Positions 31,166 to 34,674 of a DNA stretch of 64,000 nt are shown here, in pieces. This DNA is from Alphaproteobacteria bacterium. GTDB lineage: Bacteria; Pseudomonadota; Alphaproteobacteria; UBA6615. Each line of letters opens with the position of its first letter. Positions within the stretch are counted from its first letter, which is position 1. The stretch spans positions 62,001 to 126,000 of the forward strand of contig JBDXCV010000003.1 in assembly GCA_039980135.1 (NCBI GenBank), given 5' to 3'. The notes beneath the pieces are model-generated. The model had not been told where the DNA came from. It worked only from the letters and a program-made list of their open reading frames with translations, and ran no database searches. The translations under genes and the position numbers were made by a program.

Positions 31166-32122
31166 ATGAGCTGGTTGAACGAATTCGTCCGCCCGAAGAT
31201 TCGCGCGCTTGTCGGAAAGAAGGACGTCCCGGACAATCTCTGGCACAAATGCCCATCCTGCGAGCAGATGCTGTTCCACCGCGAACTCAGCGACAATCTG
31301 CATGTCTGCCATGCCTGCGGACATCATCTCCGTCTCGCCGCCAAGACCCGCATGAGCTTCCTGTTCGACGACGGGGAATTCACCCGGGTCGAATTCCAGG
31401 CCGTTACACCCGACCCGCTGAAGTTCCGGGACAGCCGCCGCTACGCCGACCGCCTGAAGGATGCGCAGAACAAGTCCGGCGAGAAAGAGGCGATCGTCAT
31501 CGGCCATGGCACGATCGGCGGCCAACGCGCCGTCATCGCCGCCTTTGATTTCGGCTTCATGGGCGGTTCCATGGGCCAGGCCGTCGGCGAAGGTTTGCTG
31601 ACGGCCGCGCGTGAAGCCATCGCCCAGGACGCGGCATTGATCGCCATCCCCGCATCGGGCGGCGCGCGGATGCAGGAAGGCATGCTCAGCCTGATCCAGA
31701 TGCCGCGTACCGTGCTGGCGGTCGAACAGGTGCGCGAGGCCGGCCTGCCCTACATCGTCATCCTCACGGACCCGACCACGGGCGGCGTATCCGCATCCTT
31801 CGCGATGCTCGGAGACATCCAGATCGCCGAGCCCGGTGCCACCATCGGCTTCGCCGGCAAGCGCGTCATCAAGGACACAATCCGCGAAGAACTGCCCGAA
31901 GGCTTCCAGACGGCGGAATCCCTGCGCGAGCACGGGATGGTCGACATGGTCGTGCCGCGCGGCGAAATGCAGGCCACGATTGCACAGGTTCTGAACCTGC
32001 TGCGCGAGGGCCGCGGCGCTGCGGACGGTGACGCGTCGGGCGGCGAGCCGGCTCCCATCGCCCTGACCGCCCCGGCGCCCGGCGACAAACCTGCTGCCGC
32101 CAGTCCGGCAGATGGTGACTAG
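31166..32122 (+). CDS. accD: Acetyl-CoA carboxylase carboxyltransferase subunit beta
   Basis: A 318-residue subunit that transfers carboxyl from biotin to acetyl-CoA. The zinc ribbon uses Cys29, Cys32, Cys48 and Cys51. Later segments such as GFMGGSMG and IPASGGARMQEG form the oxyanion and CoA site. The C-terminus (after about 290) is a low-complexity Ala/Pro/Asp tail. It overlaps folC by 11 bases, as in the typical alphaproteobacterial trpA-accD-folC order. Confidence 0.97.
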   Translation: MSWLNEFVRPKIRALVGKKDVPDNLWHKCPSCEQMLFHRELSDNLHVCHACGHHLRLAAKTRMSFLFDDGEFTRVEFQAVTPDPLKFRDSRRYADRLKDAQNKSGEKEAIVIGHGTIGGQRAVIAAFDFGFMGGSMGQAVGEGLLTAAREAIAQDAALIAIPASGGARMQEGMLSLIQMPRTVLAVEQVREAGLPYIVILTDPTTGGVSASFAMLGDIQIAEPGATIGFAGKRVIKDTIREELPEGFQTAESLREHGMVDMVVPRGEMQATIAQVLNLLREGRGAADGDASGGEPAPIALTAPAPGDKPAAASPADGD

Positions 32123-33440
32123 CGCCACCGACGCCGCCGAGAGCGACGCGCGCGCGATTGCCGCAATCCTCGCGCGCTTCGTCAAATACCATCCCGACCG
32201 CATCGACCTGTCCCTCGACCGGATGCACCGGCTGCTGTCGGATTTGGGCAACCCCCACGACAATCTGCCGCCAGCCATCCATATCGCCGGCACCAACGGC
32301 AAGGGCTCGACAACCGCGTTCCTCGACGCCGCCCTGACGGCCGCCGGCCTGCGAGTCAGCGCCTACACCTCGCCGCAACTCGTGCGCTACGCCGAACGCT
32401 ACCGGATCGCCGGAGAGATCATCTCCGATGCGGATTTGAGGGCGCTGTTCGAGGAAATCGACGAGCGCAACGCCGGTCGGCCCATCACCGAATTCGAGAT
32501 CACCACCGCCGCGGCCTTCCTCGCCATGGCACGCAAACAAGCCGATATTATCCTTCTCGAAACCGGGCTGGGCGGGCGCTTCGACGCCACGAACGTGGTC
32601 TCGCAACCCGCCGCGACCATCATTACCCCGGTCGGCTATGACCATATGGAGTTCCTCGGCGACACCCTGGCCGCGATCGCGGGCGAGAAGGCCGCCATCC
32701 AGAAACCCGATGTGCCTTCCATTGTGGCCCCCCAGGCCCCCGAGGCCGCGGCGGTCATTCATGCGTTCGCGGAGGCCGTCGGAGCGCCGCTGTATCGCGC
32801 CGGTCTTGAATGGCAACTGCAGGCCATGGCGGATGGCGGTGGACGCTACATCCGCGGTGAGAAACAGTGGCACCTGCCCCGGCCCGGCCTGCCGGGACGC
32901 CACCAACTCGACAATGCCGCGCTTGCCGCCGCCTGCCTCGATGTATGCGGGTTCCCCGGCATCGACCAGGGCGCCATAAAGACGGGCATCGCCCGGGCGC
33001 GCTGGCCGGGCCGGATGCAGCGGCTCACCTCGGGTCCGCTCGTCAGATCGATGCCGACAGGCAGCGAGATCTGGCTCGACGCGGCACACAACCCGATGGG
33101 CGCCGCTGCCCTGGCAGACGCTCTGGACGAACTCCAGGCGCATGACCCACGCCCGCAGCATCTGGTTTTCGCCATGCTGGAAGACAAGGATGTCGTCGAA
33201 TTCCTGGCGCCTTTCACCCCACGCATCGTCGGCGCCACCGCTGTCCCCATCGACGATGATCCTCGCGCCATGTCGGTGCGTGAACTGGTCGCCGCAGCGG
33301 AAAGCGCGGGTGTGATCGTGCAGTCCGCCCCGAGCGTCGCGGATGCCTTGTCCCGGATCCCCCGCAGCCCCACACCGGCGCGCGTCCTCGTCACGGGGTC
33401 TCATCTCCTGGTCGGTGCGGCATTGCGCGCGAACAGCTGA
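32112..33440 (+). CDS. folC: Folylpolyglutamate synthase / dihydrofolate synthase
   Basis: A 442-residue Mur-ligase-type enzyme adding glutamate to folates. The ATP-binding GTNGKGSTTAF is at residues 60-70, and YTSPQLVRYAERYRI, ETGLGGRFDATNV and WLDAAHNPMGA are family signatures. The protein ends with a loosely conserved domain. The start overlaps accD. Confidence 0.96.
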   Translation: MVTSATDAAESDARAIAAILARFVKYHPDRIDLSLDRMHRLLSDLGNPHDNLPPAIHIAGTNGKGSTTAFLDAALTAAGLRVSAYTSPQLVRYAERYRIAGEIISDADLRALFEEIDERNAGRPITEFEITTAAAFLAMARKQADIILLETGLGGRFDATNVVSQPAATIITPVGYDHMEFLGDTLAAIAGEKAAIQKPDVPSIVAPQAPEAAAVIHAFAEAVGAPLYRAGLEWQLQAMADGGGRYIRGEKQWHLPRPGLPGRHQLDNAALAAACLDVCGFPGIDQGAIKTGIARARWPGRMQRLTSGPLVRSMPTGSEIWLDAAHNPMGAAALADALDELQAHDPRPQHLVFAMLEDKDVVEFLAPFTPRIVGATAVPIDDDPRAMSVRELVAAAESAGVIVQSAPSVADALSRIPRSPTPARVLVTGSHLLVGAALRANS

Positions 33441-33535: not shown

Positions 33536-34612
33536 ATGACCACACCGATGCTTGAAGACATGCTCGAACGGGGCGACCGCGCGCCGAATTTCTTCCTGCC
33601 CGATCAGCGCGACATCGTCATCAACCTGAACGACAAGGCGCGCGGCGGGCCGCTTTTCGTCCTGCTTTACCCGACGCAGAAAGATCCCGGCGCGCTGGGT
33701 GAACTGCAGGCGATGTTCAAGGCCGCGCCCGCCATGCTGGAGGCCGGTGCACATCTGTTCGCGATCAGCGCCGATCCGATGCCGCTGGTGCAGAAGATCG
33801 CGGGGGAAATCAATCCGGGGTTTTTCCTGTTGTCCGACGCCGACAAGAAGGTCGCGACCCGTTTCGGGGCCCGTGGAAAACTGGTCGGGTTTGTCTTCGG
33901 CCCCGACCAGAAATGCCGCACCGTCCTGCGGCCCGGCGACACGCCGATCGCCGAACGGGCGGCGGCCGAGATCGCCGCCATGGATGCCCCGGTCCCGACC
34001 CCGGCGCAACTGCACCCGCCAATCCTGGTTATCCCCGAAGTGTTCTCGCCATCCTTTTGCCAATGGCTGATCGAACAGTTCGAGACGCGGGGCAATGAGC
34101 CTTCCGGCACATTGCGCATGGAAGAGGGCAAGATGGTCCACATCACCGACGGTGAGACCAAGCGGCGGCGCGATCATCACGTGGTCGACAAGGATCTGCT
34201 CGAGGCAATCGGCAGCCGGATCGAGCGCCGTGTGCTTCCGGAGATTAGGAATGCCTTCCATAGCGACATTCGGTTCGTCGAGGAGTTCAAGATCGTTCGC
34301 TACGATGCCGATGTCGGCGGGTTTTTCCGGCCCCATCGCGACAACACCACGCTCGGCACCGCCCATCGCCGCTTCGCGATGACCCTCAACCTCAACACCG
34401 AGGATCATGAGGGCGGCGAACTGCGGTTCCCGGAATATGGTCAGGCCAGCTATCGACCGGCAACCGGCGAAGCGGCGATCTTCTCGTGCAACCTGCTGCA
34501 CGAGGCAACCGACGTGACCAGCGGCCAGCGCTACACCCTGCTGTCTTTCATGTATGACGAGAGCGGTCGTCAGTTCCTGGAACGCTACCGCGACAAGGGA
34601 CAGGCCAGCTAG
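33536..34612 (+). CDS. Fusion of a peroxiredoxin-fold domain and a 2-oxoglutarate/Fe(II) dioxygenase domain
   Basis: A 358-residue two-domain protein. Residues 10-150 have the AhpC/TSA fold (DRAPNFFLPDQ opening, LFVLLYPTQKDP strand) but the catalytic PxxxTxxC is P46xxxD50xxA53, so both the Thr and the peroxidatic Cys are absent. Residues 160-345 form a prolyl-hydroxylase-like double-stranded helix with the iron triad His267, Asp269 (PHRDN) and His322 (LLHEATDV) and 2-oxoglutarate Arg332 (GQRYTLL). It should be an active dioxygenase with a non-enzymatic thioredoxin-fold part. It lies between folC and a terminator; the substrate is unknown. Confidence 0.85.
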   Translation: MTTPMLEDMLERGDRAPNFFLPDQRDIVINLNDKARGGPLFVLLYPTQKDPGALGELQAMFKAAPAMLEAGAHLFAISADPMPLVQKIAGEINPGFFLLSDADKKVATRFGARGKLVGFVFGPDQKCRTVLRPGDTPIAERAAAEIAAMDAPVPTPAQLHPPILVIPEVFSPSFCQWLIEQFETRGNEPSGTLRMEEGKMVHITDGETKRRRDHHVVDKDLLEAIGSRIERRVLPEIRNAFHSDIRFVEEFKIVRYDADVGGFFRPHRDNTTLGTAHRRFAMTLNLNTEDHEGGELRFPEYGQASYRPATGEAAIFSCNLLHEATDVTSGQRYTLLSFMYDESGRQFLERYRDKGQAS

Positions 34613-34645: not shown

Positions 34646-34674
34646 AAAAACCCCGCCAACGGGGCGGGGTTTTT
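34646..34674. terminator. Bidirectional Rho-independent terminator
   Basis: Stem ACCCCGCC (34650-34657) with GGCGGGGT (34663-34670), flanked by A-run on the left and T-run on the right. It lies between the convergent dioxygenase-fusion gene and trxA and can serve both. Confidence 0.9.

Follow-up and report, generated by a model that had tools for sequence, protein, structure and literature searches.

To our knowledge, substrates have been identified for only a small number of protein hydroxylases in bacteria, and PPHD, which acts on EF-Tu, is one example. Among the enzymes closest to the protein described here, PPHD is given EF-Tu as its substrate (PMC5701443, PMC7864055), and one protein of the PKHD type has been proposed to act on an imported siderophore conjugate (PMC12004943). 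The DNA that we analyzed, called the window throughout, is a stretch of 64,000 nucleotides from an alphaproteobacterium of the GTDB lineage UBA6615 (GCA_039980135.1, contig JBDXCV010000003.1, positions 62,001 to 126,000 of the forward strand); all coordinates below are window positions. On its forward strand an open reading frame at 33536..34612 encodes a protein of 358 amino acids, which an earlier note had described as a peroxiredoxin fold joined to a 2OG-Fe(II) dioxygenase, with the peroxidatic cysteine lost. That description was confirmed by Pfam, by matches of the predicted structure, and by alignment with PrxQ proteins, and the residue numbers given with it (P46, D50, A53, H267, D269, H322, and R332) match the translation exactly.

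Results

For the family comparisons we used an alignment of 84 rows, consisting of the window protein and the 83 rows left by an 88% identity filter; it was used whole for structure prediction with AlphaFold2, the Pfam scan of members, the family tree, the profile search, and the NF003974 scan. With this alignment as input, AlphaFold2 returned a model of the fusion protein with pLDDT 95.1 and pTM 0.90. The N-terminal domain comprises residues 9-151 (33560..33988, forward strand). Pfam placed AhpC-TSA at residues 13-119 (E = 1e-12) and Redoxin at residues 12-113 (E = 4e-6), both exceeding the curated cut-off, and comparison of modeled residues 9-151 with the PrxQ/Bcp protein 5epf gave Z 20.9 and rmsd 1.8 over 143 residues, indicating a peroxiredoxin/thioredoxin fold. 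The PxxxTxxC motif with its peroxidatic Cys is absent, the residues present being P46, D50, and A53 (33671-33694, forward strand). In an alignment with five stand-alone PrxQ sequences, including one from the window's own genome, the fusion protein has Asp in the column of the Thr, Ala in that of the peroxidatic Cys, and Leu in that of the Arg. The catalytic Arg is therefore lost together with the Cys, a loss that the earlier note did not contain. The Arg column, filled by Arg in all five stand-alone PrxQ proteins and in 8 of the 84 family rows, is surrounded by gaps, which makes it less certain than the Thr and Cys columns; the loop preceding this Arg is shorter in the window protein than in stand-alone PrxQ. 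The PrxQ from the window's own genome, encoded elsewhere in it, has YPKDSTPGCT, so the fusion protein coexists with a canonical PrxQ. The same genome also carries, on contig C11 near 5751 (L014), a tandem pair of closely similar open frames with PYCxAELYAxRDI; the pair resembles a duplicated AhpC/TSA-type redoxin gene.

Residue conservation was assessed in 94 distinct full-length members, the set left after removal of 17 partial open reading frames, some of them stand-alone peroxiredoxins, and of near-identical duplicates. The window protein has cysteines at positions 127, 175, and 318 only, and no Cys of the N-terminal domain is conserved among the 94 members: Cys occurs at position 53 in three of them, two of which are near orthologues from one genus, and at position 127 in one. 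None of the 94 combines Thr50 with Cys53. Within the clade of the window protein, represented by 17 genomes, position 53 is Ala in 12, Cys in two, and another residue in three, so the supposition that Ala53 might be constant did not hold. The earlier note had also allowed that orthologues might keep the Cys, in which case Ala53 would be an isolated substitution or a sequence error. This is borne out only in part: two of the 17 clade members do have Cys53; they come from a single genus, are about 67% identical, and lack the Thr, still having Asp at its position. Sequence error and isolated substitution are both ruled out by the family-wide conservation. In the family tree the window clade comprises 12 rows and has good support. 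Within it the seven nearest Ala rows have the Cys53 row as their sister, and Ala returns in the row that branches next; from this branching, gain of the Cys would be the simplest account of its origin, and late retention would also fit the surrounding YPxxxDPG stretch.

The C-terminal domain comprises residues 160-345 (34013..34570, forward strand), and Pfam placed 2OG-FeII_Oxy_3 at residues 252-339 (E = 2e-13, exceeding the curated cut-off). The C-terminal part of the model matched algal P4H 3gze with Z 19.0 and rmsd 2.9 over 175 aligned residues, PPHD 4iw3 with Z 19.0 and rmsd 3.3 over 184, and the PKHD protein 3dkq with Z 18.8 and rmsd 2.7 over 164. The model and these matches indicate a P4H-type fold and the double-stranded beta-helix of the 2OG-Fe(II) superfamily. 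The iron ligands His267 and Asp269 lie in the triplet H267-R268-D269 (34334..34342, forward strand), all three residues of which are present in 94 of 94 full-length members, as is Tyr256. The third ligand, His322 (34499..34501, forward strand), was found in 92 of the 93 members with a residue at that position, and Arg332 (34529..34531, forward strand), the presumed ligand of the 2OG carboxylate, in 93 of 93. The earlier statement that the iron triad and Arg332 are intact was thus borne out, these residues being kept in 92-94 of the 94 distinct full-length members. Two cysteines of this domain are conserved as well: Cys175 (34058..34060, forward strand) is invariant (94/94) and aligns with a Val of the PKHD protein 3dkq, and Cys318 (34487..34489, forward strand), four residues before His322, is nearly so (89/93) and is not Cys in either 3dkq or LH3.

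The structural neighbors of the C-terminal domain with known peptide or protein substrates include PPHD (4iw3), whose substrate is EF-Tu, PHD2, which acts on HIF, and algal P4H, and it is on such neighbors that the proposal of a protein or peptide substrate is based. The oxygenase might instead use a small molecule, a siderophore or other metabolite, as in the role proposed for PKHD proteins of the PiuC/YbiX type, with the peroxiredoxin-fold domain merely stabilizing it. A small-molecule substrate is possible because the C-terminal domain is nearest to PKHD proteins in sequence, its closest sequence relative in the PDB being one of them, and because one PKHD protein has the proposed siderophore role. 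The NCBIfam model NF003974 (Fe2+-dependent dioxygenase) matches 84 of 84 members; however, the window protein scores 32.2 bits against it, far below the PKHD equivalog cut-off of 143, and other PRK05467 models score lower still on this protein. Gene neighborhoods, which we fetched for 60 places, a subset of all matches, bear on the same question. A fusion relative on a Niveispirillum plasmid (L156, 6551-7633) adjoins ECF sigma and FecR genes, with a TonB-dependent receptor nearby. Searches with single-sequence queries, which could miss diverged receptors, found homologues of the TonB receptor, ECF, and FecR together in 1 of the 60 neighborhoods, apparently that of the Niveispirillum plasmid itself, and with this count an iron-uptake system was rejected as the family's partner. 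On balance we regard a small-molecule substrate as unlikely, though deserving more weight than the other alternatives taken up below.

Searches with the window protein (E up to 1e-10) gave matches in 19 of 24 genomes of the order, two of the 19 being short fragments (G400 and G393), in 84 of the 385 genomes sampled from the class, where the matches listed are at most five scored candidates of each genome and some align in the oxygenase part only, and in 24 of 398 genomes of the phylum. The four matches of the phylum sample from outside the class are stand-alone peroxiredoxins, with open frames of 157-169 amino acids. A profile search of 274 genomes from another class of the phylum found clear fusions in L157 and L158 and a diverged one in L159; among the matches listed, most others covered the peroxiredoxin part only. 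Within the 84-row alignment Pfam found 2OG-FeII_Oxy_3 in 77 members and AhpC-TSA in 59. The family profile also detected fusion relatives on plasmids of Rhizobium leguminosarum (WP_012760540.1, 459 bits) and Niveispirillum (WP_102115373.1, 438 bits), both publicly named '2OG-Fe(II) oxygenase'. A plasmid origin was considered and set aside, six plasmid records having matched, with the fusion family demonstrated in two, as was a phage origin, two phage records having matched in the oxygenase part only. The search for the same fusion elsewhere, suggested in the earlier note, thus showed that it recurs in many related bacteria and is not isolated. We concluded that the fusion defines a genuine, widely distributed family, most of whose members are alphaproteobacterial.

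Some genomes have two or more fusion paralogues (L071, G636:C42; L135/L136, G003:C61), the L071 pair lying head to tail, and one genome (G122) has at least five matches. A few members are split in two frames or have an in-frame stop (L049/L006 in G387, L043, and L019), and these are perhaps pseudogenes or errors of draft assembly.

Such members, for example L049 with one TAG, are what could be cited for regarding the fusion as a decaying gene or as an artefact of annotation or assembly. Against this, each of the 94 distinct full-length members is encoded by one open frame, the catalytic residues are conserved, the two-domain model is confident, and dN/dS is low in both parts. Compared with the 94%-identical orthologue L002, dN/dS was about 0.06 (0.039/0.63) in the N-terminal part and about 0.02 (0.009/0.542) in the C-terminal part; dN/dS was computable in both parts for 1 of 11 clade pairs, so the selection estimate is that of a single pair. 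Both parts are under purifying selection, the N-terminal part evolving faster than the C-terminal part, yet constrained. For the window gene itself the open frames, conservation, dN/dS, and model refute decay and artefact, and we give this explanation a negligible chance.

The gene order in the window is trpF-trpB-trpA, recognized by Pfam as PRAI, PALP, and Trp_syntA, then accD-folC-fusion gene, followed on the opposite strand by trxA and addA; accD, folC, trxA, and addA are presumed identities, the names coming from the earlier note and from recognition. The folC gene (32112..33440, forward strand) is directly upstream and co-directional in all 16 clade loci that show what precedes the fusion gene, whereas the 17th locus, L001, begins at that gene; in 12 clade loci measured, the distance from the folC stop to the first aligned residue is 29-180 nt. 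On the other side, a pattern scan found a terminator-like inverted repeat at 34650..34665, present on both strands, between the fusion gene on the forward strand and the convergent trxA on the reverse strand. The trxA gene comes next in 13 of the 16 clade loci with a visible far side and not in L100, L101, and L104, the first two of which are the loci of the Cys53 orthologues. Outside the clade, trxA adjoins the fusion gene in 1 of 49 neighborhoods, that of the distant relative L109, where genes for a phosphoesterase, a HAD hydrolase, and a methyltransferase take the place of folC on the other side. In the other 48 of these 49, out of the 60 neighborhoods fetched, no homologue of accD, folC, trxA, or addA was found. 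We concluded that the stable neighbor within the clade is folC, not trxA. No partner gene common to the family was found, clustering of neighboring open reading frames outside the clade giving only small groups of at most nine loci; groups overlapping the fusion gene itself were set aside.

The earlier note had placed the gene between folC and trxA and had seen in this a link to thioredoxin. The position is correct; as a functional clue the link is weak, since trxA converges on the gene from beyond terminator-like repeats and some orthologues have no trxA next to them, and adjacency was therefore rejected as an argument for trxA as a functional partner. The same observations bear on whether the N-terminal domain is redox-active still, through thioredoxin binding, peroxide sensing, or thiol switching by C175/C318 or other cysteines. 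The conservation of C175 and C318, neither of which is Cys in the aligned 3dkq, the frequency of trxA as the next gene in the clade, its recurrence beside L109, and the two orthologues with Cys53 are in keeping with such activity. It is opposed by the lack of any conserved Cys in the N-terminal domain, by the arrangement of trxA and the failure to detect it in most neighborhoods, and by the fact that the Cys53 orthologues are themselves without an adjacent trxA. We consider retained redox activity improbable, more so than a small-molecule substrate.

Discussion

Computation established both folds, in a confident model, the loss of the peroxiredoxin Thr, Cys, and Arg, the retention of the iron triad and Arg332, the conservation of these features, and purifying selection. 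Our preferred reading, to which we assign a probability of roughly 0.6, is that the protein belongs to a family, found mostly in alphaproteobacteria, whose PrxQ-like domain has become a pseudoenzyme and is retained, as a structural element or for recruitment, by a 2OG-Fe(II) oxygenase of P4H/PHD/PKHD type. By analogy with its structural neighbors, the protein is most likely a peptide or protein hydroxylase of this type with a non-catalytic docking domain of peroxiredoxin fold. The C-terminal domain, judged from its residues and model, would bind Fe(II) and 2-oxoglutarate and would then hydroxylate a protein or peptide on one of its side chains, while the pseudo-peroxiredoxin domain would position the substrate or hold a partner, without thiol chemistry. 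Of the earlier suggestions for the redox domain, that of a non-catalytic binding module fits a peroxiredoxin fold that lacks the peroxidase residues and is kept family-wide under purifying selection. A more speculative version, which we think has a small chance of being right, is that the hydroxylase targets proteins of the thioredoxin system or proteins that bind peroxiredoxins by way of the dead peroxiredoxin arm, or is redox-gated through C175/C318, and so belongs to an undescribed bacterial pathway of hydroxylation linked to oxygen and redox state.

No publication on this fusion came up in the literature searched, the scope of which excluded most subscription papers, a possibly relevant 2010 survey of peptide-modifying dioxygenases among them. 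The components are already known; what appears to be new, judged from sequence, is the stable pairing of a pseudo-peroxiredoxin with a 2OG oxygenase throughout a family, together with two highly conserved cysteines in the oxygenase domain at positions where the aligned PKHD protein has other residues. That the fusion has lasted in many alphaproteobacterial families with its peroxidase site erased suggests a pseudoenzyme module selected for a non-catalytic role. A family with a putative docking domain built in could serve as a handle for finding another substrate of a bacterial hydroxylase. If the target were to lie in the thiol-redox machinery, oxygen-dependent hydroxylation would be joined to redox control in bacteria.

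Comparison with known systems places the protein as follows. It resembles PrxQ/Bcp proteins (M. tuberculosis BcpB, 5epf; S. solfataricus Bcp1, 3drn) in sequence and over the whole N-terminal fold, but differs from them in lacking the Thr, the peroxidatic Cys, and the catalytic Arg, in its shorter loop before the Arg, and in the fused oxygenase. With prolyl 4-hydroxylases (P. putida PPHD, 4iw3 and 4j25; algal P4H, 3gze; human PHD2) it shares the C-terminal fold, the HxD...H ligands, and the C-terminal Arg, whereas identity in structural alignments is about 14-18% and the N-terminal domain of peroxiredoxin fold is an addition. The PKHD-type proteins YbiX, PiuC, and CciO and the protein 3dkq are the nearest relatives of the C-terminal domain by sequence, with HxDN and GGEL stretches in common, but the window protein falls below their NCBIfam cut-off and does not share the TonB-receptor neighborhood. 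WP_012760540.1 of Rhizobium leguminosarum and WP_102115373.1 of Niveispirillum are, by profile, members of the same two-domain family; they differ from the window gene in genomic setting, and their public name omits the peroxiredoxin-fold domain.
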